From positions 1-21,226 of the IMG/VR virus record IMGVR_UViG_3300046758_000095: a stretch of DNA of 21,226 bases; one strand, 5' to 3'. Position numbers and translations under genes: made by a program. The stretch comes from a virus. Positions 1-14,329 of this stretch are shown one piece after another (positions within the stretch are counted from its first letter, which is position 1; the number at the start of each line of letters is the position of its first letter). The notes beneath the pieces are model-generated. The model worked only from the letters and a program-made list of their open reading frames with translations. It was not told the DNA's origin and searched no databases.

Positions 1-3000
1 AAGTAGTATAATCAACAGCACCGCCACCGGCAACAGTACCAGCCAGGAAGTTTTTAGATTCTGCATCGTCTAAATTTACTATTTTACCAGCTTGAACTGC
101 TGCGTTATCTTCCACAAAGTCAATACTTGTTGCACTTGCAACAAACAATTCTCCGCCTAAAATATTTACATAAGCACGTTTTTCAACTGAAGCAACTTCA
201 ATTTGAAATCCACTACCTGTGCCGCCAACGCTACTTGCAAGAACACTAACTATATCGCCAACTGCGTATCCTGTTCCGCCTGTTTTTACATCAACATCTG
301 TAACTTGTCCTGCTGTAATAGTTATATCTGCTGTTGCTCCAGTACCAGATCCTGATACATTAGTTAGTGCTACATCTAGATAAGTTTCTGTACCGCCTGT
401 TGGTGTATATAAACTACCACCTGTAATTTCACCGTTATCTACATTAGTTAATACGCCTTCTCTAATTTCACTTACTGCACCTTGAGCGTTTCCGTCTGCA
501 CTTGTAACAATAGTTCTTACTGTTCCTGTGTCAGAAGTACTGCCAACATCTGCACCAGTATTTGCAATAGTAAATGTTGTTGCGCTCGGTGTGCTTAATA
601 CTTTACCGTTTACAGTAAACAATGTATTTGCATCAACTACAACCTGTACATTGTTGTCTATGTTTAAATTATGTGCTCCGGTTGTAGTAATAGTAGCAAT
701 ATTACTTGTACGCTGTATATTTGTTATTGTTTGACTTGTAAATGTATATGTATCGTCAGGATCTAAAACTAAGAACTGACTTGTGTTAGATGAACGTAAG
801 AAGAAGTTATCAACAATTGCAGAACTTGATCCTTTAGTTGTAATATTAACACCGCTATCTACACCGTTAATAAAGATATTACCAGCATTTACTTCCCATG
901 GATCTCCTGTGCTATCTTCGTTCTCGTCCCATGCTTCGCCAACAGTAGCTACAAGCATATTGCTGCTAAGTGAATATTCACCTTTTGCATATGCTATTGC
1001 GCCTGCTACACCAGGCTGAGTAATTGTATCACCGTCTTCTGCATTTACAGTACCGCTAAAATTAAGTTCTACTTGTTCATAATTTTCAGTAGCAATGTCA
1101 CCCGCTTTAAGATCAGATGGAGGAACATTATCAACTTGTAAAAGTCTTGATAGATATCCATTTGTATTTGTGTTTGTAAACTGTCTTGTTGCAGGAATCA
1201 AATCTGGATTAAGTTGTCCATTAGTATTCAATTGAACAATAGCACCTGGAACAGCCGCAGTTGACACAGTTTTGTCAACAAAGCCTCCTAATCTATTACT
1301 AATAAAGCTTCTAACTGCTAACTGGGTAGACAATCTTTCATTTTTAGGTCCACCAATTTCGTCATCGCCTAAGTTAACACTAGTTGAAATTTCTTCAATA
1401 GCGACATCAGAAAGACTTAGTCTTAGAGCATCTAGCTCGTCTACCTGTACTTTGTTTCTAAAGGTAATGTTACCTGTTCTGTTAAACGCTGTAATAAAGT
1501 CACCAACTTTAAAGTCACCAAGTTCGTTTGTACCTGATGAGTAACAACGTCCTGGCAATTCTTCAAACTGTTCAAATTCCTGTCTTGTATTACCACCGTT
1601 TTGCGGTAATGCGTTATAGTCTGTACCTGAACCAGCAAATTCCCAAGTGTGCGAAGAACTGTTAACAATACTTGGTCTGTGTAACCAAATTCCTGTTTCA
1701 GGCAAGTTTCCTAGATTAGTTAATGCATTACTACCGTCTGTTGCTTGTAAACTAAATGTAGCAGTACCGAGATCTCTTCTTGCACTTACTTCGTTAATAC
1801 CAATTGCAGTATTTGGAGATCCAGCATGGTCGCTTGTAATTGTACTTGTAGCATCAAATTGTATACGTAATGTACTTGATCCTACTGTTACTAATTCAAT
1901 ACTTACAATTAGTTTTCTATCAATCGGAACCCATTCGTGTACAATAGCACTGTTATTTTGTGCGCCTGTTGTACCTTGAATTTGTCTACCTGGTACAAAT
2001 TCATAGTTTTCAGCACCTGACTCAAGAATCAATTCTTGATAAGTTGTGTGGCTACTTGTAACTTCTTTTACAAAGAATTCGATAATATTAGATTGGAATT
2101 TATGTGTGCCTGTATTATTAAAGCCAGTAAACAAGTTAACATCAAACGCTAAACTTTCGTCAAATGTTAAGGTAAATTCGTTTTCGTCAATAAGTTTAAT
2201 GTAATATGTTTGTTCTGGATCTAAGCCGCCAATTGGTGGATTTCCATCAGGATCGTAAATAACCTTTTCGCCATTAGTATAACCGTGACCGGTAATAGAG
2301 AAAATATTAGTTACCGGATTTACTGCTGTAGCTGCATTAAAGGTTTGTTCTACAGGTGCTGATTTAAAGTTGTTTGTAACATCACCTTCTGAACTAACTT
2401 CTGCATATTGAGGAATATCACCTGGATCTCTTATTGCTTCTTTAACAATTTCAAATCGCGAATCAATAAAGTCTTCAATTGCTAATGTAATACCTGCTTG
2501 TCCACTAATTGCGGTATTTGTTAATTCACTTGCTTTTTCAATGGCTGCAATTGTTTGTCTTTCTTGTCCACTAATTTGACTTCTACTACTGTCTGCTAGG
2601 TTATTAGTGTAGTATGATAAGCCTGCTGCTCGTGTATATCTGTTACCAGTATCCCATGTATCTTGTGCAACTGCTTCTACAATTAGTCTAGTATCTCTGC
2701 GACATTTTTCAACATCATAAGTAAATCCGTACCATATATTTGCAGCAATTTGTTGCTCAATATATTCGTTGACATTTTGCGCAATATTAATTCTTGTGGT
2801 ATAATCTAAAATATTATAACTATTTTGCAGACTAGCTGCTGTCCATGTAATGTCTGGATAATCTTGTTCAAGTTCACTTATTGTTGCATCGCCGTCTGCA
2901 TCAATGTAATCTATAATTTCCTGCACAAGTGCTTGAGCTTTGGCCGATGCAGTGGCGCTACCAGCAGTACCGCTTGTATCTTGTGTTTCAGTTGTTCCAG

Positions 3001-5212
3001 TTGATGTAGTAACTGTGGTTTCTAATATAACTTGACCAATAACTTCTACAAGTCTGTCATAAGCAGCAATAGTTTCTTCTTTTTTACCAGATCCGTATTG
3101 TGCTACTGTTCCTACAAAGTACGCTAATGCAGCGTCATATGTTTGTAAGTTACCACCATAAGTTAAATCATAAACTAATGCATCTACGATTAAACCAATA
3201 TCTTCTTGACATTTAGCACTATTATAGTTGAAGCTAGGTGTAAATGGTGATATACCTGCTGAAACTTGATCTGCAATCCAAGCAGTAACTTCGTCTTGAA
3301 CAAATGCTTTGTTTGCAATTAATTGTTGTACTGCATTTGCGTAACCAGAATCACTAGCATTGTTTGATCCGCCTGTAGGAGTTGGAAAACTATATGCATC
3401 TGCGGCGCTTTCGCCATTGTCAACAATATCAATAACTTCATCCCATAGTGCATTAACACGAGATATAAATGTGCTATCTGCAAGATAATCATCTGTAATA
3501 CTTTTTGCATATGTAAATGCTGCTACATGTTGATCTCTTTGGCTTGGTAGTAAATCAAATGTTCCATTATAATAACGCAAAGCTGCACTAACACTTCTAT
3601 AATTACTATTAAATGCAGCGTCTTGTCGTATAGCATCTAGTAATAGGTTAGTATCACGTTTACATTTTTCAACATTATATTCAAACCCTGCCCATATACT
3701 AGGCGAGGCGCCTGCTATTTGTGCTTGTATCCATGTAACTGTATCGTCGGCAATTGTATTCTTCTGTGCTAGTATACTATTATACGCAATCTTGTATCCT
3801 GTATCTCTAAAGCGTAAAACAAATTCTTCAACCGGTGTTTCTCTATTAATACCAACAAGTGTAATTGTTTGTAAGCCTTCGAACTGACCTGTAGCTGTTA
3901 CAGTAGCACGATCAAATTCAAATGCTTTTGGTGAATAACCACTAGATCTCAACGCATACAAACCAAAGTTTGTCGCGGAGTTAGTAATGGAACAATAACC
4001 ACCGGACTGTGTGTAAACACCATTTAGTAGGAAAATTTGGAAACACGAAACGATCTGTGCGTAAGCATCGTTGAGTAGTCTCCAACCTGTACCACCAAAC
4101 GAAAGCATAGTGTATGCGTTAGCAACCATTGATTTACCTTGTTCAGGTACAGCACCAGCAACAGGATTTTCAGCTTCAATAGCAAAGTCTGGAACGTTTG
4201 GAGATTCAACTAATGCACCGTCAATCTTAGCACCACTACCGCCTAAGAAACTAATAATTGAACAGTTCTGTGTATATGGCGATGTAAAAATTCTTGGTTT
4301 TGTGTTAGGTAAGTTTGTATATTCTGCACGGTCAGTAACGTCTGTAGCGTTTGGATCATCAAACACTGTAGCATAGTCCCAAGTAATAGTTGGAATACCG
4401 TTAGCATCAATACCGTCTCTAAATGTAAATTCACCAAAGTAACATGCGTTACGAACACGGAACATGTCTAAGTTTGCATTGGCTGGACGTACAATACAAC
4501 CACGTAGGCCGTCACCTTTGACAACAACATTGTCTGGAATAATAACTGGGTTATCTTCTGTATAGTCACCAACAGCAACTTTAATGTTTACTCTAGTAGC
4601 GGACAATGTTCCGTCAGGATTATAAACAATTGCTGATGCTAATTTACATGCTGCCTTAATAGTTCTAACCGGTGCACTCTGTCCATCGTTTGCATCGTCA
4701 CCTTGCTCTTCACTAACATAAATGACGTTACCGCCAAAAATGTCTGGATCTGTAAAACTTAAATTACCTGCTCCGTCTGTTTTTAAAAGCTGACCAATAG
4801 TACCTGTAACCGGAGGCAATGTTAAGGTATATCCGTCTGCTAAAGTATCAGGTGATTTAAGACTAACACCGTCATCACCTGACGCAGTTAATTCTTTGAA
4901 TGTAAGAGTATTTGCGTCTTCAATATTAACTCTATCTTTTAAATTAATATCAGTGTCATTAATAATCATGCGTTCTGTATTGTTAACAGTCATGGTAACC
5001 TGGGCTTGATCTGCTGCGCCTAGGTCATCTACTTTAACTTCAGTATCGCCTTCAAAAATTCTTTTTGTAATATCTTGTACTGTGTTATCATCTCTTAGTA
5101 AATAAACTTTACCGTCGGCTGTGTTAATTGCTAATTCGCCGGAACTGAGTTGTGATACTATTGGCTGTTTTCCAGCCACAGCACTACGCTTGTGTCTTAA
5201 TGTTGTTGCCAT
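1..5212 (-). CDS. Giant tail-fibre/adhesin-like virion protein, partial (3' end beyond the left edge)
   Basis: An unbroken reading frame runs from ATG at 5212 to base 2, at least 1737 codons, with no stop. A strong AGGAGG lies about 9 nt before the ATG. The N-terminus (residues 4-50) has an LRHKRS motif, then GELAIN and DGKVYL, as in virion-attached fibre proteins of marine T4-like phages. Residues about 165-440 look like a parallel beta-helix: YVSEEQGDDANDG, RTIKAA and GDYTEDNP recall DUF1565/pectin-lyase folds, followed by QIVSCF, GGYCSITNS and FGLY. Residues about 500-935 hold three CxRD modules (Cys 517, 668, 837). Residues about 1190-1240 carry a TDYNALPQNGG/GDFKVGDF domain, and about 1308-1340 a PGAIVQLNTNGQLNPDLIP fibre motif. 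The visible C-terminal end has Gly-rich GTGY-type beta repeats. It is a paralogue of the 2528-aa protein encoded just upstream. I infer a receptor-binding or fibre role. The enzyme-like fold shows no catalytic residues I could assign. Confidence 0.85.
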   Translation of the reverse strand, partial: MATTLRHKRSAVAGKQPIVSQLSSGELAINTADGKVYLLRDDNTVQDITKRIFEGDTEVKVDDLGAADQAQVTMTVNNTERMIINDTDINLKDRVNIEDANTLTFKELTASGDDGVSLKSPDTLADGYTLTLPPVTGTIGQLLKTDGAGNLSFTDPDIFGGNVIYVSEEQGDDANDGQSAPVRTIKAACKLASAIVYNPDGTLSATRVNIKVAVGDYTEDNPVIIPDNVVVKGDGLRGCIVRPANANLDMFRVRNACYFGEFTFRDGIDANGIPTITWDYATVFDDPNATDVTDRAEYTNLPNTKPRIFTSPYTQNCSIISFLGGSGAKIDGALVESPNVPDFAIEAENPVAGAVPEQGKSMVANAYTMLSFGGTGWRLLNDAYAQIVSCFQIFLLNGVYTQSGGYCSITNSATNFGLYALRSSGYSPKAFEFDRATVTATGQFEGLQTITLVGINRETPVEEFVLRFRDTGYKIAYNSILAQKNTIADDTVTWIQAQIAGASPSIWAGFEYNVEKCKRDTNLLLDAIRQDAAFNSNYRSVSAALRYYNGTFDLLPSQRDQHVAAFTYAKSITDDYLADSTFISRVNALWDEVIDIVDNGESAADAYSFPTPTGGSNNASDSGYANAVQQLIANKAFVQDEVTAWIADQVSAGISPFTPSFNYNSAKCQEDIGLIVDALVYDLTYGGNLQTYDAALAYFVGTVAQYGSGKKEETIAAYDRLVEVIGQVILETTVTTSTGTTETQDTSGTAGSATASAKAQALVQEIIDYIDADGDATISELEQDYPDITWTAASLQNSYNILDYTTRINIAQNVNEYIEQQIAANIWYGFTYDVEKCRRDTRLIVEAVAQDTWDTGNRYTRAAGLSYYTNNLADSSRSQISGQERQTIAAIEKASELTNTAISGQAGITLAIEDFIDSRFEIVKEAIRDPGDIPQYAEVSSEGDVTNNFKSAPVEQTFNAATAVNPVTNIFSITGHGYTNGEKVIYDPDGNPPIGGLDPEQTYYIKLIDENEFTLTFDESLAFDVNLFTGFNNTGTHKFQSNIIEFFVKEVTSSHTTYQELILESGAENYEFVPGRQIQGTTGAQNNSAIVHEWVPIDRKLIVSIELVTVGSSTLRIQFDATSTITSDHAGSPNTAIGINEVSARRDLGTATFSLQATDGSNALTNLGNLPETGIWLHRPSIVNSSSHTWEFAGSGTDYNALPQNGGNTRQEFEQFEELPGRCYSSGTNELGDFKVGDFITAFNRTGNITFRNKVQVDELDALRLSLSDVAIEEISTSVNLGDDEIGGPKNERLSTQLAVRSFISNRLGGFVDKTVSTAAVPGAIVQLNTNGQLNPDLIPATRQFTNTNTNGYLSRLLQVDNVPPSDLKAGDIATENYEQVELNFSGTVNAEDGDTITQPGVAGAIAYAKGEYSLSSNMLVATVGEAWDENEDSTGDPWEVNAGNIFINGVDSGVNITTKGSSSAIVDNFFLRSSNTSQFLVLDPDDTYTFTSQTITNIQRTSNIATITTTGAHNLNIDNNVQVVVDANTLFTVNGKVLSTPSATTFTIANTGADVGSTSDTGTVRTIVTSADGNAQGAVSEIREGVLTNVDNGEITGGSLYTPTGGTETYLDVALTNVSGSGTGATADITITAGQVTDVDVKTGGTGYAVGDIVSVLASSVGGTGSGFQIEVASVEKRAYVNILGGELFVASATSIDFVEDNAAVQAGKIVNLDDAESKNFLAGTVAGGGAVDYTT
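2420..3715 (-). repeat. Three CxRD helical modules in the partial giant protein
   Basis: Protein-level repeat inside the giant gene. Cysteine codons at 3662-3664 (CKRD, residue 517), 3209-3211 (CQED, residue 668) and 2702-2704 (CRRD, residue 837) each start a helix of the form CxxDxxL(I/L)(V/L)(D/E)A. The first is the short subtype (AIRQD, then NSNYR; 151 residues to the next Cys). The second is the long subtype (ALVYD, then YGGN, with a TGTTETQD insertion; 169 residues). The third is more divergent (DTGNRY). The modules match those of the 2528-aa paralogue. Confidence 0.85.
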
Positions 5213-5226
5213 TTGCAACTGCCTCC

Positions 5227-5297
5227 TATTTAGGTACGGGTCAGGTCTATATAGACGCCCAATCTACACGATAGTAATCGTTGTATAGTTATTTATC
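5227..5297 (-). promoter_or_regulatory. Late-promoter-like GATAAATA and structured leader of the left giant gene
   Basis: GATAAATA (minus strand, 5297-5290) matches the T4-type late promoter core TATAAATA in seven of eight bases. The same octamer stands before the 121-aa gene at 14799-14792. The 78-nt leader to the ATG at 5212 holds two small hairpins: ACGAT/ATCGT around a four-base loop, and a perfect 12-bp palindrome GTCTATATAGAC at 5245-5256. It ends in the AGGAGG ribosome site at 5226-5221. The assignment rests on motif, position just after a terminator-like hairpin, and recurrence. Confidence 0.6.
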
Positions 5298-5309
5298 ATA
5301 GGAGTAAAA

Positions 5310-5333
5310 TGGTAGCTTAATTAAAAGCTACCA
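5310..5333 (-). terminator. Hairpin across the stop codon of the 2528-aa gene
   Basis: Perfect 9-bp inverted repeat TGGTAGCTT/AAGCTACCA (5310-5318 and 5325-5333) with a 6-base AT loop. The gene's TAA stop (5323-5321) is in the loop. On the minus strand it is followed by ATTTTA, a short U tract, so it is a weak intrinsic terminator or an mRNA 3'-end stabiliser. A late-type promoter follows 13 bases on. Confidence 0.6.
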
Positions 5334-8300
5334 CCATCGATTGTGTCAGTCCAAACTGGTGTTGCATCTGAATCGCTTGTTACAGTTAGTATTTGGAAAC
5401 TATCACTTGCATCTGACGTACCTGCGGCTGCTGTTACCTTTACTGGGTTTGCAGTATCTCCGTAAAGTATACCATCTTCTGTAAATGTACTAACACCAGT
5501 ACCACCATATTGTACTTCTAAATCAATATTAGTTAATGCCAATGTTCCGTCAATTGTAACATCTTCGTTAACTTTTAAATTTTGATCTAGTGTTGTTAAA
5601 CCGCCTGTTGCACCGATAGCTATTGTTGTAGCAGCACCAGCAAAGTTTACTGTTGTTGCATCGGTGTTCAACAAATTAAATGTAGCTTGATTTGTACTTA
5701 TAGTGTCATTATTAACTGCAATGTCAGTAGTAAATGTTGAAACTTCTTCACCAAGTCTGAGTTTTTCAACTTGCGCAGTACCGCCTATCATTGTGCGGAA
5801 TACCATATCAAAGTCTTCTTGACCACTTGTTACATCAGTGCTTACGACTTCAACTTGACCTGCTAATTCAAAGTTGTTGTTTCCGGTTTCTAATTCAAAT
5901 TTTAGACCAGTACCGCTACCAGCTACAGGAGTTCCTGCTGCGTTATGATGTGCAAGTGTCATTGGATACACAATATCATCTGCTGCACTATCAGGTGCAT
6001 CAGTTAATAATTTAAATCCATCTGGTGATAAAATTGTATCTGCAGGTATTAAAAGTTTATCACTAGCTACATCTGTAAGTTGCAATACGCCGCTATTATC
6101 GCCGCTTATAAATCCTTGTACATGGATATTTTCAGCAACACCTAAACCACCTGCAATTGTTAACGCACCAGTTTGATAATCAATACTAGGTGTTGTTGCA
6201 CCTAAACTTAAAACCTCAATTGACGAATCAAATGCTGCTGTATTTTGATTAATGATAAATCTTTGTACATTAGCAGTAACAAATTTTAATTGATCATTAT
6301 CTGATCCAGGAGTATCTTCAGGACTAATAAATGTGTCTTGATCAACATCCTTAACGCCGCCAAGTGCGCCCCATGCTGTTCCATCATATCCTTCAAACGA
6401 ACTATCAGTAGTATTATATCTAATTTGACCTTGTACTTCTGTTGGACGTTCAGCTGTTGTACCAACCGGAACTTGTAAAGAGCTTGTACTATCAATTATT
6501 ACATCTTCTACGTTAATTGTAAGAGTACCAGTTGTTGCACCTATGTTAATAGTAGTAGCTGCACCGAACGCATTTATAGTAGTTGCATTTGTATTAAGTA
6601 AGTTAAATGCACCTGTTTCATCTGTAATAATGTTGGTACCATTTACTTCTATATCTCTATCAGCAATTAAGTCTCTATCAGCAACAATATCTTGCCCAGC
6701 ATGTATACTAAGCTGCGCACTCATACCACCAGTAACTTGTATTGCACCAGTTACATTATCAGTTGCATCATCGCCATTCAAAACAATTAAGTTTGGAACA
6801 GCACCAATTTCAACTATTGCAGCACCGTCCGTTGTGTTAATGCTAATATAATCATCAACGTTTTCATGTATTCTAAACACATCAACAGTATCATCAGGTA
6901 CATCGATATCTGTAATACCGTTTATATCAATACTATCTTCTGCTCTATCTGTTCCTAAGCGTGTATTTCCGTTTACATTTAAACTTAGATTAACAAATAA
7001 ATCTTCGCCAATACCAACACCACCGTCAACTACAAGAGCACCTGTAATAGGACTTGTACTTCCGCTATCGTTTTGAATTTCAACTCTTGGTTGTTCGCCA
7101 AACGTGAACTTTTCTTCGCCTTCTCTAGTATTAACACTTACATAATCTTCTGTACCAACGCTAATACTGTATGCTTGTAAACTTTGTACTGGAACAGTTA
7201 AAGCAACATCGCCGGTAAAGTTTATATTACCGTTTACAGTAAGAACACCTTCTACCAACATATCTGGGTTGATTGTAACTAAACCTGTTGCAGCACCTAT
7301 GTTTATTTCTGATGCTTCTCCACCAAAGTTAATAGTGTCAGCAGTTGTATTTAAAAGGTTAAATGTATCTACTGCGGTAGAAAGTACATCACCGTCAACG
7401 TCTAAGTTACCGTCTAGTACAACGTCTCCTGTAATTGTACCACCAGTAAGTTTGTTTAAGTATCTGTTTTCAACGTATGTTGCAACTGCTTTTTGTGTAG
7501 GAGATGTATTAATATCTTGTAAACCGTTACTAGCAGTCATGTTAGGGTTATTGCTAACTTCTTTAAGTTCTACACCAACTGGAATACCGTCTCTAATAAA
7601 CGGTCCAACACTTGTTAAACCTTGTAAGTCAATCTCGTTAGCGTTAAGTGTAATCGCACCTGTAAGTGCGTTAACACCAAAGAAGTTACCAACTCTAAAG
7701 TTACCAATTTGGTCAACTGTACCACCAGCAAAAACTTTACCTTGATCTGTTTCGATAATCTCTTGTTCAGCAATTGGCGAGCCACCAAAGAATGGAAGTG
7801 CGTTATATGTAATACCTGCGCCAACATATTCAAATGCATGTCCTGATGTACTAATTGTACTAACATTATACAATTGTCCTAGTGTATCGTTTTGAATAGT
7901 AATTATACCTGGACTTATTGTAATATCATATGTACCACCATATGTAGCATTGATTTGTTTAATTGCTTCGTCTACTACTGATTCAGTATTGCGCAAAATT
8001 ATTTCACGTTCAATATTATATGTACTATTTCCTAGTCCATAATTGTGATCTTGTTCTGTCCATCCAGTTGTATAACCTTCTTGTATAGACTGCGCAATTC
8101 TATCAATAAGTAGTTCTGCAACTTGTCCTGCTGCTAAACTACCGTCTGGTATACTAATATCCTGAGTTAATGTGTTACCAGGACTCTTCGTAATAGGATT
8201 GTTTTGTGCAATTTCTCTAAGTATATCTCCAAGATATCTATATGTTAATTCGGTAATTGATTCTTGCCCTGCAATAACCGCATTGTTATAATATGCTAAT

Positions 8301-11300
8301 CCTGCACGTCTAGTTTGTTTATTACCGCCATACATCATATCGTATACTACTGCATCTACAATATATTTTGTATCTCTTTCGCATACTTCAGTTTTATATT
8401 CAAAGTCAACAATGTCAGTAAAGATAAAACTTGTTACTGATGATTGTATTACTGCTTTTTGTGCTAATAATTGAGCTGCTGCGTTTTGTTGAGTAACATT
8501 TAACCAACTAAAGTTAGGTTGAATTTCTCCAGGTGTTCCGCTTAATGTTTGCGCTGTTACAGCATCTTCTATAATTTGTAATAAGTTTGAAGATGTTGTT
8601 GCTTCAACTGTAGTACCGTAATTGCCATTTAAACTTTGTGATTCATTGTTACCTGTGCTTGGTGTAACTGCAACACCTTGAATAACATCTTCAATAACGT
8701 CTGCTAAGTGTGCCCATGCTGCGCCAGTAACTGCTGCCTGTTCATCAGGTAGATATTCAGTTGCTCCTAAGAAATAAGCTCTAGTTGCAATTAACATCGC
8801 AATATTACCAGTATATAATAAATCATGGCAAAGTGCATCAATTACATATGCAGTATCACGTTCACATTTTTCTATGTCATATGTAAATCCATTGTAGGTT
8901 GTATTGATATAGTTTATTGTTTCAACTTGTAACGATGATTTTAAATCTATAAAGTCTTGTCTTGCAGATAATACTGCTGAATCAACCCATGCTGTACTTG
9001 GAGATACTGTTGCTGGCAAAGTGTCAATTCCAAATTCTACAACATCTTCTACAATTTGTACCAATGCTTCTACATCAGTTACTTCTGTTGAACTAGCATT
9101 AGAACCACTTGTATCCTGAGATTCACTATTACCTGTCTGTGCAGTTATTGAAGTGCCTAATAAAATTTCTTCTATAAGTCCTTGTAAGTGATTAAACCCT
9201 GCGGCTGTTTCTAATTGCTCACCTGGAACTTGTGTAGTTGCATTTTCAAAATATGACGAAGCAGCCAATTTAGTTGCTGTATTGCCGCCATAAACAATAT
9301 CGTATGTTAATGCATCTACAATATAACCAACATCTCTTTCACATTTTGTTGTGTTAAATGTTAAACTAGGAAAATTGTTTTGAATATAAGCTCTAGTGTC
9401 ATTTGCTAAGAATGCTCTATTGGCTTGTAATCTATCTCTAGCTGCTGTGATTGTTGCTGCTGCACCTGTAGGTATCGGAAATGATAAAGTGTCTGCTGCT
9501 GTATCTGTACTTACAACACCATTGTTTATAATGTCTACTATTTCGTCAAATGCTGCATTACTTCTAAGAACTGCTGTTGCATCAGCAGTCATAATAGTCG
9601 AAGCTCTTCCTTTTAAGAAGTTTATTGCCCCTACTGTTTGTGCTTTTTGATCGCTTTGTACATACGCACTTCCGGCTCTTTGATAAGCAAGTCCGTTTGT
9701 TACTGCATTATAGTTTGTTCCAAATGCAACATCAGATTGTACTGCATCAATTATTAAGCCTGTATCACGTGAGCATTTTGCACTGTCGTATACAAATAAA
9801 GTACCGCTTCCATTGTCATATACATTATTAATATATGCTGTAGTTTCTTTTGTCAAAAATTCACGGTTGTTAATAATTTGTTCAACTGCGTCAATTAAGT
9901 CTTGTCCAGCTGGTCCTGGACTTTCAAATGTTCTACCTTCACTTGGAATAGTATTATATTCAATAACTTCTAGGACATCGTCCCAACGATCAGATACTTG
10001 TTGTTTGATAAAACTATCTAAATCAACTGCTGCAACACTAAGTTCTTTTGCTTTCCTTAGTGCCATTATAGTTGCAGGTTTTTGTTGCTCATCAAAATAA
10101 GCAACATTAGCTCTATAATATGCCTGACCAGCTGTTAAACTGTTGTGATTAGTTCCTAGTTGAGCATCTCTATATACTGCATCAATTATTAATCCAGTGT
10201 CTCTTTCACATTTTGTTCTATCAAATGTATCATTAGGATAAGTTGCCAACAAGTAAGCGTTTGTTGCACTTATCATTGAAGTTGTATTGTTTAATATATC
10301 ATTTGCAGCATTTTGTTTTACTAATGTTTCGCTATCATATGTTGGATATGTTATAAGAGGTAATCTACTAGTTGTATTTTCTGCAACTACATCTTCAATA
10401 TTAAATAGTAAACTATCTAATGCATCTGCTTCAATACTAGTTGCTGCCGCATTACTAAAATCTTGTGTTTCTGTAGTGCCAGGGCTTTGTACTACAACTT
10501 GTTCTCTTACTACAGATTTTATAACATTACGCATTCTCGCAAAACCATCTGCAATTCTAGTTCTGTTAATTGCTGTGTAACTTGCTATTTTACGTCTGCT
10601 ATAGTATCTAAAACCTTCTCTAACAACACCACTGTTACCTGTGTATAATATATCGTAAGTTAAAGCATCTACAATTTTCTTAAAATCTTCATAGAAGTCT
10701 GTTTCGTCTTGTGCTGTCCAAGTGTCAGTTAGTGTCGGATGTTCGCTTTTCATATAAGCAACAAATTCGTCTGCTAAAAAGTCTTTGTTTGCTTGTAATT
10801 GATTTTTAGAATCTCTTCTATTTGCTTCTACACCGGCAAAGTCTGGGAAGTCAATTGTTATTCCTGAACTATCGCCATCATCAAAAATATTCACATAACT
10901 GTTAAACGATTCGTTAACAAATGTAGTCATTGCTCCGTCTGCTAGAACTTCTGTCAACGCTAGTGACCTAGTCTGCAAATCTTTCCAAGCATTTAAGTAT
11001 AATTCTTTTTGTGTATCTCTTACTACATATTCTTGTGCATCTCTTACTACATGATAATTACTTCCTAATGCACATGTATAAGCAACTGCCTTTAAAAGAT
11101 TAGTTGCATCAGTTTCAAACTGTGGAACATTGTAACTTAATTCAGTAAACTGATTTCTTATATATTCTGTAATTTCTTCTACAATGAAATCTTTATTTGC
11201 AACAATATTGTCTTTTGCTCTACGAACTCCTAAGTCAACAGTTGACAAATCATTATAATTAATATCAGGAGCAGCACTACTATCTTCGTTTGCAAGGAAA

Positions 11301-12907
11301 TTTGTAATAATTGCAAATTTTTCAGTTATTAATGTTTGCACCGCTACATTATTAGTTAATGCAATCATTTCGTCACGTGCAACATTAATACCAAATATTG
11401 TAGGAGTAAGTTGATCAAGTAGCACCTTACCTGATCTTGCTCTTAAATAACTTCTTCCAGCAGCAATAGCTTGATAATTTGTACCTAGTACAATATCGCC
11501 TACTACTGCATCTATAATAAATCTTGTATCTCTCTTACAAACTTCTTCATCATAAAAGAATGGTGGTGTAATTTGCTGAGATTCTGTAATATAATAAAAT
11601 TGCGAATCGTTTAAGAATCTTGCAATACTACCAACTTGTGGTTTATCTCTTAAACTACCAATTCGTATTATGCTATTTGTTTGTAAATTTGCAGTTGCAG
11701 ATGCAGCAATAGTAGGATCGCCGCCAATAAATCTTATAGCCGGAACTTGTTCATATCCAGATCCGTTAGATAAAACTGTAATACCAGCAATTTGTCCTGT
11801 TGTAGTATCTAAAACTGCTGATGCTGTAGCTTGTGTGCCGCCTGTGCCTGTTGGTGCATCAATGTCAACTGTAGGAACATTTGTATATCCATTTCCTGGA
11901 CTGTTAATTGTAATACTAGCAACACTAGAAAAGTAATCTTGTACTGGTCTTGCACTTGTATAACTTGTTGGATAATAACCATCTGCTACACATCCAAATA
12001 ACCCAAAGTCACTTACCGAGTTTGAAATACTTAGATATCCGCCTCTTGATGTTTTAAATCCTGTTGTACAGAAAACTGTAAAACAACTAACAATCTGAGT
12101 ATAACCAAAGTTTGTAATTTCAAATCCTGGGCCACCTTGTGCGATTTGTGTAAATGCATCAGCAACAAATGATTTTACAAGTGACGCTGGATTGTATTGG
12201 TCTCCGTCAACCAACATACCACCACCACCACCGTAGTCGTTTATTTGTTTTTCAAAAGGTAAATTTGGATAGTCTGCTAACAATAAAGGTCTTGCGCCTG
12301 GTTCAATGCCGTCAATTTGCACTGTTTCAAACGGAACAAATTCAGTTCCGTCATTTAACCAAGGACCGTTCATATTAGTACAGTTTTGTACATACGGAGA
12401 TGTAGTTACAAGTGCGCCGGGTCTAATACTAGCACACCATCCTGGAGCTCTCAATCCGCGGAATGTAAGCTGATACAAATAGCAACCGTTTCCTAATTTA
12501 AAAAAGTCGCTAGTTGGATTATTTGGAAACACTCTTGTATTACGTAGTTCTCCTGTACCTGTAATGGTTACAAAATCCGGCATACTAATTGGATTATTTT
12601 CGTAATAATCTCCCGGTGCAACCATAATAGTTGTACCTGGTACTGATACTGAAACAGCAGATTTAATAGTACGTTTAGCACCATCAGGTCCCATACTTTT
12701 ACCATCGTTGCTATCATTACCGTCTTGGTTAACATATATAATATCTGTTACTTCAGGGCCGCTAATATTACCTGTTACAGTTACATCAGCATCGATGTGC
12801 AATTCGCGACTAGGCGGATTAATTTCAACATCGCCGTCTGCTTTTAATATAACAGATTGGTCTTGTATTTTTCTTTCGTGTAGATTCTGACCCTTAAAAT
12901 ACCTCAT
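5321..12907 (-). CDS. 2528-aa modular fibre/adhesin-like virion protein
   Basis: Complete frame, ATG at 12907. A GGAAG ribosome site lies inside the last codons of the 110-aa gene, whose stop is 3 bases upstream. Residues about 55-340 resemble a parallel beta-helix (YVNQDGNDSNDGK, RTIKSA, PGDYYENNP, then QIVSCF, GGYLSISNS, FGLF). Residues about 345-410 carry a GNGYTNVPTV/GSGYEQVPAI beta repeat. Residues about 440-1660 form eight helical CxRD modules of 140-162 residues. A TYNALPFFGG/GNFRVGNFF domain lies at about 1690-1755. From about 1848 the chain is fibre-like, with three NLLNT/INIGATTG repeats, three TGAL.V.GG repeats, and GYDGTAWGALGG at about 2170. The C-terminus VWTDTIDGGSF is of a kind common in marine phage fibre proteins. 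Unlike its paralogue it lacks the LRHKR-type N-terminus. I infer a long tail-fibre or virion adhesin. Such length is unusual even for T4-like fibres (T4 gp34 is about 1290 aa). Confidence 0.9.
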   Translation of the reverse strand: MRYFKGQNLHERKIQDQSVILKADGDVEINPPSRELHIDADVTVTGNISGPEVTDIIYVNQDGNDSNDGKSMGPDGAKRTIKSAVSVSVPGTTIMVAPGDYYENNPISMPDFVTITGTGELRNTRVFPNNPTSDFFKLGNGCYLYQLTFRGLRAPGWCASIRPGALVTTSPYVQNCTNMNGPWLNDGTEFVPFETVQIDGIEPGARPLLLADYPNLPFEKQINDYGGGGGMLVDGDQYNPASLVKSFVADAFTQIAQGGPGFEITNFGYTQIVSCFTVFCTTGFKTSRGGYLSISNSVSDFGLFGCVADGYYPTSYTSARPVQDYFSSVASITINSPGNGYTNVPTVDIDAPTGTGGTQATASAVLDTTTGQIAGITVLSNGSGYEQVPAIRFIGGDPTIAASATANLQTNSIIRIGSLRDKPQVGSIARFLNDSQFYYITESQQITPPFFYDEEVCKRDTRFIIDAVVGDIVLGTNYQAIAAGRSYLRARSGKVLLDQLTPTIFGINVARDEMIALTNNVAVQTLITEKFAIITNFLANEDSSAAPDINYNDLSTVDLGVRRAKDNIVANKDFIVEEITEYIRNQFTELSYNVPQFETDATNLLKAVAYTCALGSNYHVVRDAQEYVVRDTQKELYLNAWKDLQTRSLALTEVLADGAMTTFVNESFNSYVNIFDDGDSSGITIDFPDFAGVEANRRDSKNQLQANKDFLADEFVAYMKSEHPTLTDTWTAQDETDFYEDFKKIVDALTYDILYTGNSGVVREGFRYYSRRKIASYTAINRTRIADGFARMRNVIKSVVREQVVVQSPGTTETQDFSNAAATSIEADALDSLLFNIEDVVAENTTSRLPLITYPTYDSETLVKQNAANDILNNTTSMISATNAYLLATYPNDTFDRTKCERDTGLIIDAVYRDAQLGTNHNSLTAGQAYYRANVAYFDEQQKPATIMALRKAKELSVAAVDLDSFIKQQVSDRWDDVLEVIEYNTIPSEGRTFESPGPAGQDLIDAVEQIINNREFLTKETTAYINNVYDNGSGTLFVYDSAKCSRDTGLIIDAVQSDVAFGTNYNAVTNGLAYQRAGSAYVQSDQKAQTVGAINFLKGRASTIMTADATAVLRSNAAFDEIVDIINNGVVSTDTAADTLSFPIPTGAAATITAARDRLQANRAFLANDTRAYIQNNFPSLTFNTTKCERDVGYIVDALTYDIVYGGNTATKLAASSYFENATTQVPGEQLETAAGFNHLQGLIEEILLGTSITAQTGNSESQDTSGSNASSTEVTDVEALVQIVEDVVEFGIDTLPATVSPSTAWVDSAVLSARQDFIDLKSSLQVETINYINTTYNGFTYDIEKCERDTAYVIDALCHDLLYTGNIAMLIATRAYFLGATEYLPDEQAAVTGAAWAHLADVIEDVIQGVAVTPSTGNNESQSLNGNYGTTVEATTSSNLLQIIEDAVTAQTLSGTPGEIQPNFSWLNVTQQNAAAQLLAQKAVIQSSVTSFIFTDIVDFEYKTEVCERDTKYIVDAVVYDMMYGGNKQTRRAGLAYYNNAVIAGQESITELTYRYLGDILREIAQNNPITKSPGNTLTQDISIPDGSLAAGQVAELLIDRIAQSIQEGYTTGWTEQDHNYGLGNSTYNIEREIILRNTESVVDEAIKQINATYGGTYDITISPGIITIQNDTLGQLYNVSTISTSGHAFEYVGAGITYNALPFFGGSPIAEQEIIETDQGKVFAGGTVDQIGNFRVGNFFGVNALTGAITLNANEIDLQGLTSVGPFIRDGIPVGVELKEVSNNPNMTASNGLQDINTSPTQKAVATYVENRYLNKLTGGTITGDVVLDGNLDVDGDVLSTAVDTFNLLNTTADTINFGGEASEINIGAATGLVTINPDMLVEGVLTVNGNINFTGDVALTVPVQSLQAYSISVGTEDYVSVNTREGEEKFTFGEQPRVEIQNDSGSTSPITGALVVDGGVGIGEDLFVNLSLNVNGNTRLGTDRAEDSIDINGITDIDVPDDTVDVFRIHENVDDYISINTTDGAAIVEIGAVPNLIVLNGDDATDNVTGAIQVTGGMSAQLSIHAGQDIVADRDLIADRDIEVNGTNIITDETGAFNLLNTNATTINAFGAATTINIGATTGTLTINVEDVIIDSTSSLQVPVGTTAERPTEVQGQIRYNTTDSSFEGYDGTAWGALGGVKDVDQDTFISPEDTPGSDNDQLKFVTANVQRFIINQNTAAFDSSIEVLSLGATTPSIDYQTGALTIAGGLGVAENIHVQGFISGDNSGVLQLTDVASDKLLIPADTILSPDGFKLLTDAPDSAADDIVYPMTLAHHNAAGTPVAGSGTGLKFELETGNNNFELAGQVEVVSTDVTSGQEDFDMVFRTMIGGTAQVEKLRLGEEVSTFTTDIAVNNDTISTNQATFNLLNTDATTVNFAGAATTIAIGATGGLTTLDQNLKVNEDVTIDGTLALTNIDLEVQYGGTGVSTFTEDGILYGDTANPVKVTAAAGTSDASDSFQILTVTSDSDATPVWTDTIDGGSF
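5585..7370 (-). repeat. Fibre-type C-terminal repeats of the 2528-aa protein
   Basis: Three copies of a beta repeat that begins FNLLNT, continues with ATTINFGGAAT-like sequence and ends INIGATTG (residues starting near 1848, 2099 and 2408; nucleotides about 7270-7365, 6520-6612 and 5585-5685). They alternate with three copies of a TGAL(V/T)(V/I)xGG(V/L)G(V/I)xE motif. Such repeats are typical of trimeric phage fibre shafts of marine myoviruses. The copies are diverged at DNA level, so this is an old protein repeat and not a recent duplication. Confidence 0.75.
7930..11590 (-). repeat. Eight-module CxRD helical array in the 2528-aa protein
   Basis: Marker residues lie at 457, 597, 738, 900, 1045, 1189, 1348 and 1509. 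Six are Cys in CxRD. The second and third are Phe (FETD, FYED; codons 11117-11119 and 10694-10696). Spacings are 140, 141, 162, 145, 144, 159 and 161. Each marker begins a helix with an (I/V)(I/V)DA core, then GTNY/GSNY/GTNH (short type) or YGGN/YTGN (long type), then an A.YY-like segment, ending in a predicted helix with NxxF and YI before the next marker. Long modules also carry a (S/T)xGxxx(S/T)Q loop about 66-75 residues after the marker. The order is S-S-L-S-S-L-L-L. Confidence 0.85.
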
Positions 12908-12910
12908 TCT

Positions 12911-13243
12911 TTATACTTCCAAATAACTTAATGTAACACTTAAATTAGTAGGCGGAGCGCCTACCATAATTATTCTATCACCTTCTTCTAATACCAGTCT
13001 TTCGACGTTAAATGTAAAGGTATCTGCAGACGGAACATCCAAATCATTTAACACTTGATTGTCGCTGCCCTTAGCATCTCCGTTAACAACAACATGCATA
13101 TCAAATGATGTATCGCCAATGCCGCTACCATCGTTTACCGCGGTGTTGCATACTAGAATAGTGGTAACAGCAAATTTTTTGCCAGCTGGAACAGTTAGTA
13201 TGGTAGTATCTGTTGCGCCTATGGTGTTGTTTACTATTGCCAT
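12911..13243 (-). CDS. 110-aa small virion protein, probable beta-sandwich
   Basis: ATG at 13243 with AAGGA about 8 nt upstream. It starts 9 bases after the stop of the 358-aa gene and ends 3 bases before the 2528-aa gene, so the three are surely co-transcribed. The sequence is almost all alternating beta strands: MAIVNNTIGATDTTI, AVTTILVCNT, DMHVVV, TFTFNVERLVLEEGDRI and LSVTLSYLEV. Small proteins of this pattern (strand-rich, with an ERLVLE.GD motif near the end) accompany fibre genes in marine T4-like phages, from memory and not checked. I infer a virion decoration or fibre-associated subunit. It has no signal peptide, membrane segment or catalytic motif. Confidence 0.75.
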   Translation of the reverse strand: MAIVNNTIGATDTTILTVPAGKKFAVTTILVCNTAVNDGSGIGDTSFDMHVVVNGDAKGSDNQVLNDLDVPSADTFTFNVERLVLEEGDRIIMVGAPPTNLSVTLSYLEV

Positions 13244-13252
13244 TTTCTTTCC

Positions 13253-14329
13253 TTAAAATATAATACTAAAAAGCAGAGCTTTGTTTCTGCTAATTAATTC
13301 GTCTTGTGTACCTATAGCGTTTCTAAAAAACACACCTGTGCCTCCATCTGCCTCTGGTTTACTGTATAAAAATACACCATCAGTAGGATCAGATGCAGGA
13401 TCAGTTTGTTCGGTTAGTTGTGCTACACTATCAATTTTTGCAACGCCGGTGCCTGAACCTTTTACAATAACATCACCAATCAAGTCTGGACTTGTAATAA
13501 TGTTGTCTGTTAAAAATACTTGCCCTATTGTTACACCGTCATCTTTGAAAACAGCAGCAGTTGAAGTATCAATTGTTATTTCTACTCTGCTATCTTCTGC
13601 AGGATCAATTTCAGTATCATAAACTCTAACTTCGGTTAAAGATGCTAAATCGTTAAATTTAATTCTATCTTGAAAGTTATATTTGTGATATTCTTTAACA
13701 TAATCCTTTAAAGTTTTTACAGTGATTAATGCGTCTATGTCACCAGGTGTAGCTAGTTTATCTGGATTAGAAGCGTTTGGTGTTATATCATCGCCGGTAT
13801 ATGGAAATACCTGTTTATGATAATCACTTGTGCCTCTAACACTTACAATGCCAGTGCCTTCTGCTAATAATATTAAATCATTATTTGCAAATGTTTTTAA
13901 ACCACTAGTGTAAAGTGTTTTTAATTTGTTTTGAGTATCACTCATAACAAATGCACCAGCATCTACATCTGGAAATGTTGCTAATGTTAAGCCGCCGTTA
14001 CCGGGTACAATGTTCTTCTGTGTTTCGTCAAAAAGTATACTTGCATTGAATCCTCCGGCACCTTCGCCGCGGTCAATAATAATACCGGCTTTTCTTTCGC
14101 CGTCTGCTTCACTAATACCTGGTCCTTGTTCGCCGTCGTTTACTGTAATTGTTCTGTCACGAACAACAACTTCGTTTACTTCGGTTTGTGTAATATTACC
14201 AGTAACACTCAAGCTACCAGTGATATTAACCTGACCTAAGTCGGTACCAGTATCAATAGTAAAAATTGCACTATCATTTAACTTAATCTTATAGGAATCG
14301 AGATCAAGTATTTCAACTCTTTGAGCCAT
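13253..14329 (-). CDS. 358-aa fibre-like structural protein
   Basis: ATG at 14329 with GGAG 7 nt upstream; starts 11 bases after the 121-aa gene. The N-terminus is beta-rich with ITGSLSVTGNIT, the repeat type used to build triple-stranded fibre shafts. It is followed by VVVRDRTITVNDGE and GIIIDRG. The middle is acidic and mixed. The C-terminus has DGVFLYSKPEADGGTGVFF, then DELISRNKALLFSIIF. That ending (a Gly-Gly-Thr-Gly segment, then ELIS.+KAL and a hydrophobic IIF end) is one I associate with virion proteins of marine T4-like phages, without having checked a database. Its place between a small virion protein and the giant adhesin supports a tail or fibre role. The exact position in the particle is unknown. 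Confidence 0.75.
   Translation of the reverse strand: MAQRVEILDLDSYKIKLNDSAIFTIDTGTDLGQVNITGSLSVTGNITQTEVNEVVVRDRTITVNDGEQGPGISEADGERKAGIIIDRGEGAGGFNASILFDETQKNIVPGNGGLTLATFPDVDAGAFVMSDTQNKLKTLYTSGLKTFANNDLILLAEGTGIVSVRGTSDYHKQVFPYTGDDITPNASNPDKLATPGDIDALITVKTLKDYVKEYHKYNFQDRIKFNDLASLTEVRVYDTEIDPAEDSRVEITIDTSTAAVFKDDGVTIGQVFLTDNIITSPDLIGDVIVKGSGTGVAKIDSVAQLTEQTDPASDPTDGVFLYSKPEADGGTGVFFRNAIGTQDELISRNKALLFSIIF

Follow-up and report, generated by a model that had tools for sequence, protein, structure and literature searches.

Phycobiliproteins (PF00502), among them phycocyanin, phycoerythrin, and allophycocyanin, are proteins of about 140 to 165 amino acids with a globin-like core of helices A to H and a chromophore helix that bears the motif KCxRDxGY. 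In phycobiliproteins the chromophore is attached at the Cys of CXRD, and this motif is the hallmark of covalent bilin-binding globins (PMC10151467). Bilin-binding globins also occur in heterotrophs as bilin biosynthesis-associated globins (BBAGs), of which BBAG-1 and BBAG-3 have CXRD and bind bilins without a lyase; their genes lie in host HO-FDBR-V4R clusters (HO / FDBR / V4R or B12-domain) (PMC10151467). Phages carry bilin genes as auxiliary metabolic genes (hemO, pebS, pcyA, pcyX, and cpeT), and these have so far been explained as changing the host's pigments or metabolism rather than the virion (PMC2984593, PMC10452541, PMC11480375). What phages of cyanobacteria and of heterotrophs gain from their genes for heme oxygenase, bilin reductase, and CpeT is debated, chiefly for hosts that lack a standard phycobilisome (PMC2984593, PMC11480375). 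In the openly licensed PMC literature, no paper that we found describes phycobiliprotein-like domains in the virion proteins of phages; as far as we searched it, the fold and its motif are already known, and their tandem arrays in phage adhesins are apparently undescribed.

The arrays were found in a 21,226-base contig (IMG/VR virus record IMGVR_UViG_3300046758_000095, positions 1 to 21,226), and the whole of this stretch is referred to here as the window. Its main genes all lie on the minus strand and encode a gp20 portal, an S77 prohead protease, a scaffold candidate, the gp23 major capsid protein, small proteins, and two giant proteins, A and B, so that the genes for A and B follow gp23 within the block of structural genes. 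Between gp23 and A are a 358-aa gene (13253 to 14329), which had no PHROGs match and a weak DUF5649 repeat match below the cut-off, and a 110-aa gene (12911 to 13243), which matches phrog_1276. The nearest relatives of the portal are those of jumbo phages of Sinorhizobium (61%) and Agrobacterium (57%), related contigs reach 330 kb, and A and B are best ascribed to a T4-related phage, probably of the jumbo type. We found psbA or psbD in none of 15 related records, one of them 330 kb long, while the S-PM2 control gave two hits. A cyanobacterial host for this phage is thus unsupported, and a non-cyanobacterial host is likelier, given the relatives without psbA and psbD and the portal resembling that of rhizobial jumbo phages.

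Protein A (2528 aa; 5321 to 12907, minus strand) consists of an N-terminal domain, a beta-helix head, eight helical modules, and a beta-rich, fibre-like C-terminal half, and it matches PHROGs tail fibre and virion structural families. Protein B (at least 1739 aa; 2 to 5218, minus strand), which is cut by the contig end, has a beta-helix head, three modules, and a beta-rich part; its start is likelier to be the ATG two codons past the listed TTG than the TTG itself. The heads of the two proteins are 37% identical, and a beta-rich domain that follows the module array in A (residues ~1660 to 1830; 7418 to 7930, minus strand) is common to B at 33% identity. In the AlphaFold2 model of the head of A (residues ~50 to 320; 11948 to 12760, minus strand), which has a pLDDT of 74.6 overall, ~85 to 94 for residues 60 to 180, and lower values at ~185 to 230, we found a parallel beta-helix of the tailspike or pectate-lyase type. 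In the VIA comparison it came closest to the cyanophage Pam1 tailspike, whose receptor-binding domain (7eea_B) aligned with a Z score of 19.7 and an rmsd of 2.2 over 185 residues. We know of no solved phage tailspike in which phycobiliprotein-fold modules follow the beta-helix. A search for chromosomal or MAG homologues through the head of A returned two contigs, both without modules. The structural-family matches, the structural gene neighbourhood, and the receptor-binding-type beta-helix are best explained if A and B are giant adhesion or tail-fibre-type virion proteins, and the tailspike-like head of A places the modules within a predicted tailspike- or fibre-like adhesin. An earlier reading of the sequence alone had set the modules between a beta-helix head and a fibre shaft, and the head model and its VIA match bear out that arrangement, with a beta-rich, shaft-like part behind the array.

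That sequence-only reading had counted eight modules in A and three in B, and leave-one-out profiles, in which each module was searched with the other ten, confirmed the count, with 51.8 to 118.5 bits for all 11 modules against at most 10.6 bits in a control of 200 shuffles per module. The repeat unit is a whole domain of 135 to 165 aa rather than a short motif, and mean pairwise identity among the 11 modules is 25%. The positions of the Cys or its equivalent are 457, 597, 738, 900, 1045, 1189, 1348, and 1509 in A (spacings of 140, 141, 162, 145, 144, 159, and 161 residues) and 519, 670, and 839 in B (spacings of 151 and 169), in agreement with the 140 to 169 residues given earlier. The CxRD motif, which had been described as common to all copies, is literal in 8 of the 11 modules and reads FETD at A597, FYED at A738, and CQED at B670. 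The I/V-I/V-D-A helix and the G-T/G-N turn that had been named with it were likewise found, but not literally in every copy.

The modules of A follow one another on the minus strand, beginning with module 1 (residues 412 to 554; 11246 to 11674), which has CKRD. Modules 2 (555 to 690; 10838 to 11245) and 3 (691 to 856; 10340 to 10837) have lost the site, module 2 reading FETD with Thr89 gone and module 3 reading FYED with both Gln85 and Thr89 gone. Module 4 (860 to 996; 9920 to 10330) has CERD and module 5 (999 to 1141; 9485 to 9913) has CSRD, and CERD recurs in modules 6 (1147 to 1305; 8993 to 9469), 7 (1306 to 1464; 8516 to 8992), and 8 (1467 to 1622; 8042 to 8509). In B, also on the minus strand and with approximate ends, the three modules are at residues ~472 to 615 (CKRD; 3374 to 3805), ~622 to 780 (CQED; 2879 to 3355), and ~791 to 930 (CRRD; 2429 to 2848). 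There are two length classes, and the long type, to which A738, A1189, A1348, A1509, and B670 belong (modules 3, 6, 7, and 8 of A and module 2 of B), has an additional loop that joins its last two helices. This loop, SPGNTxTQD, lies between helices G and H at the place of the second bilin loop of beta phycobiliproteins and has no Cys.

A Pfam scan of the whole of A and B gave no match, and PF00502 was revealed only through the modules of relatives. The Pfam Phycobilisome family was matched by 18 of 67 module triples from relatives (best E, 7e-7), and the next family was matched by 4; counted by record, it exceeded the curated gathering cut-off in 1 of 32 and reached an E value of 0.01 or lower in 14 of 32, with no match for the window's own protein. 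When the module profile was searched against PDB sequences, phycocyanin was the top and only strong theme and was colinear over helices A to E. AlphaFold2 prediction of modules 5 to 7 of A gave a repeated globin-like domain (pLDDT, 91.3) with core helices A, B, E, F, G, and H, so the earlier description of the module as helical is borne out. Foldseek matched this model to phycobiliproteins with a probability of 1.00, and the best 50 VIA-align rows were all phycobiliproteins or close kin, with Z scores of 14.0 to 16.7, the upper value being reached with module 6, and a best rmsd of 2.1 over 133 residues. In hhalign comparisons with CpcA, ApcA, and CpcB, whose reference sequences were checked against the PDB, the profile matched with a probability of 91% and an E value of 1e-6 and set KCxRDxGY on KC84ARDIGY; the module HMM, run against three sequences, found CpcA at 2e-6 and CpcB at 6e-5. 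Convergence of an all-helical domain that carries a chance CxRD would be in keeping with the identity to phycobiliproteins of only 13 to 17% and with the modest raw scores (E, 0.04 for the PDB search and 0.09 to 0.7 for Foldseek), but it is very improbable, since those best 50 VIA rows include no globins or other bundles and CxRD lands on the bilin Cys in both the sequence and the profile alignments. We regard it as settled, from the profile comparisons and the predicted structure, that the fold is that of phycobiliproteins, or bilin-binding globins. The earlier statement that no named domain could be attached to the module therefore does not hold, as the module matches a known fold and has its bilin-anchoring residues.

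The modules share with phycobiliproteins the globin-like core, the KCxRDxGY helix, and the domain length, but they differ in being tandem domains inside viral adhesion proteins of 1600 to 5000 aa, in having no N-terminal X-Y hairpin, the element for alpha-beta pairing, of their own that we could see, and in the module-specific conserved residues D52, D57, N63, and Y73. Each module begins at helix A, and several VIA rows align only from about residue 29 to 34 of the phycobiliprotein chain. Since neither the X-Y hairpin nor the chromophore of phycobiliproteins was seen in the modules, we would file them, on sequence and model comparisons, as a new lineage with this fold rather than as phycobiliproteins. 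A comparison with the published description of BBAGs finds CXRD (types 1 and 3) and the bilin-binding-globin fold in common, but the phage modules are repeated in tandem within virion-type proteins and are not set in an HO/FDBR/V4R cluster.

C-x-R-D of the modules aligns without gaps with Cys84-x-Arg86-Asp87 of phycocyanin alpha, its covalent bilin site, and in MAFFT alignments T89 falls on Tyr129 and Q85 on Ser125 of the same protein. In phycocyanin, Asp87 and Arg86 hold the bilin nitrogens and propionate, and the Tyr129 region lines the pocket. CxRD is present in 392 of 526 unique modules. Among 483 unique modules, those with Cys43 have R45 in 94%, D46 in 100%, Q/E85 in 97%, and T89 in 90%, compared with 19%, 53%, 33%, and 16%, respectively, in those without it, while A53, G61, and A92 hardly differ between the two groups. 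When the set was thinned to 60% or 45% identity, the four residues that correlated most strongly with Cys43 were T/S89, R45, D46, and Q/E85. Some losses that look recent retain T89, as expected if decay is gradual. Cys, Arg, Asp, Gln/Glu85, and Thr/Ser89 disappear jointly from modules that still have the fold residues, and they thus behave as one predicted ligand site. On another explanation, the modules descend from bilin-binding globins and are now only structural beads, with CxRD retained because it helps packing or touches the neighbouring module or chain. The persistence of some site-less modules in the arrays is in its favour, but beads of this kind need not lose the five residues jointly while the buried fold residues remain, and we consider this explanation possible but doubtful.

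An iterated profile found the modules in nearly all of 80 related loci, with a median spacing of 150 residues. Counting them showed 6, 8, 10, 11, 12, or 16 copies in orthologues of A and 1 or 3 in orthologues of B, and the variable copy number that had been proposed is therefore confirmed. In one relative (L006, 7803 to 18352), the A-orthologue runs through 7 modules and then continues in a second reading frame, owing to a frameshift or a sequencing error. In another (L084, from 10654; an ORF of 3623 aa), all six modules are without Cys, and most retain R-D (TERD, GERD, INRD, TQRD, and AQRD). Variation in copy number is what a spacer would show, and this also suits the structural-bead explanation. 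The narrower proposal that the main function is to tune fibre length, with modules added or removed to set it, is compatible with the range of copies in both proteins, but it leaves the conserved site unexplained and does not account for C, R, D, Q, and T being kept and lost as a set. A passive length-tuning spacer is possible, and length tuning as the main function is extremely unlikely.

The same modules are present in giant tail proteins of marine cyanophages, with profile E values down to 1e-46. In cyanophage annotations these giant proteins go only under short tail fibre, tail fibre, virion structural, or baseplate wedge protein (PHROGs 5342, 4527, 701, and 18802; S-PM2 p091), and they share with A and B both the modules and the beta-helix and beta-rich neighbours. 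At 18 cyanophage loci the Cys is kept in 80 of 89 profile matches, mostly as KCxRDxGY, together with E85 and S/T89. These cyanophage modules (L089 to L106) are more compact than those of the window and have a second conserved Cys within DPxSCA(N/D)VQ, a motif of the loop that precedes the last helix; in the most compact modules that helix may be either H or the first helix of the next module. In MAFFT alignments the second Cys shares a column with Cys153 of phycocyanin beta, a site served by T-type lyases (PMC10452541). It is absent from the window's modules and from other non-cyanophage records. The site could instead bind some other ligand (heme or another tetrapyrrole, a host pigment breakdown product, a metal, or a lipid), or its Cys could form disulphides, and the two cysteines of the cyanophage modules are in favour of this rival. 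However, the conserved residues are those that serve for bilins (PMC10151467), and an intra-module disulphide cannot be general, as window-type modules mostly have a single Cys per repeat; we judge another ligand or a disulphide to be distinctly unlikely.

Bilin genes occur in some module-bearing phages. A gene of the CpeT bilin-lyase family is present in 21 of 24 module-bearing cyanophage genomes and in none of the four without modules (P-SSM2, P-SSP7, S-SM2, and S-SSM7), an association with a one-sided Fisher P value of 0.0017 when phage kinship is ignored. In ten module-bearing cyanophage genomes the CpeT gene lies ~0.3 to 5 kb upstream of the giant module gene; it stands shortly upstream among tRNA genes in L093, L094, L095, L096, L099, L105, and L106 and in S-PM2, S-H9-1, and S-H9-2, and at these loci a 2OG-Fe(II) oxygenase gene often adjoins it. 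Purely structural beads would leave both this association and the second Cys unexplained. We found CpeT in none of nine non-cyanophage records and in neither B23 nor DSL-LC03, which have both module cysteines.

Heme oxygenase and bilin reductase genes stand side by side, with overlapping reading frames, in 2 of 50 non-cyanophage module-bearing records (L086, 861 to 2061; L085, 726 to 1866), and in both they lie elsewhere in the record than the module genes. One of the two reductases shares 51% identity with the enzyme of Pelagibacter phage Mosig. Such enzymes were not found in the other 48 records, which are mostly fragments; that most records were seen without bilin enzymes again accords with structural beads. 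The Mosig genome has a heme oxygenase and a reductase and no modules, its pair (L151, 1945 to 3181) lying directly before neck genes and next to three 2OG-Fe(II) oxygenase genes. P-SSM2 likewise has a bilin reductase and no modules, and a strict one-to-one tie of bilin reductases with modules is ruled out by these two phages.

Because bilin enzymes and modules do not go strictly together, we put covalent bilin binding by the modules with a full site, with those lacking it being structural, at about an even chance. In the arrangement that we propose, a tailspike-like beta-helix head would be followed by tandem phycobiliprotein-fold domains and a beta-rich shaft, and a linear tetrapyrrole (bilin) would be supplied by host or phage enzymes. 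Modules with the full set of (K)C-x-R-D, Q/E85, and T/S89 would bind it during assembly, most likely through a Cys thioether, and modules without this set would be purely structural, so that the mature fibre would present a row of chromophores. The phage of the window and many marine cyanophages may thus build virions that hold a light-absorbing bilin pigment, as judged from sequence and predicted structure. Possible roles for such a chromophore are light-gated adsorption, photoprotection, and rigidity.

A bilin-binding-type domain repeated in phage tail proteins is a candidate acceptor for which the host need have no phycobilisome. Pigmented virions, if real, would provide a virion target for the phage bilin-synthesis and lyase genes and a mechanism for the light-dependent adsorption seen in several cyanomyoviruses (PMC2984593). 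P-HM2 does not adsorb in the dark, and P-SSP7 infects in the dark (PMC7112961); we found the modules in P-HM2 and not in P-SSP7, a contrast that is suggestive only, as it involves two phages of different families. The fuller proposal, that covalent bilins in the tail adhesin, loaded in cyanophages by the phage CpeT, act as a light sensor or a light-gated attachment switch, is unlikely. Even without a pigment, the modules would give the phycobiliprotein fold a new home and would put a name to a large share of the "unknown" sequence of giant proteins in at least 168 phage records; in tblastn searches these were all from cyanophages or marine viruses.
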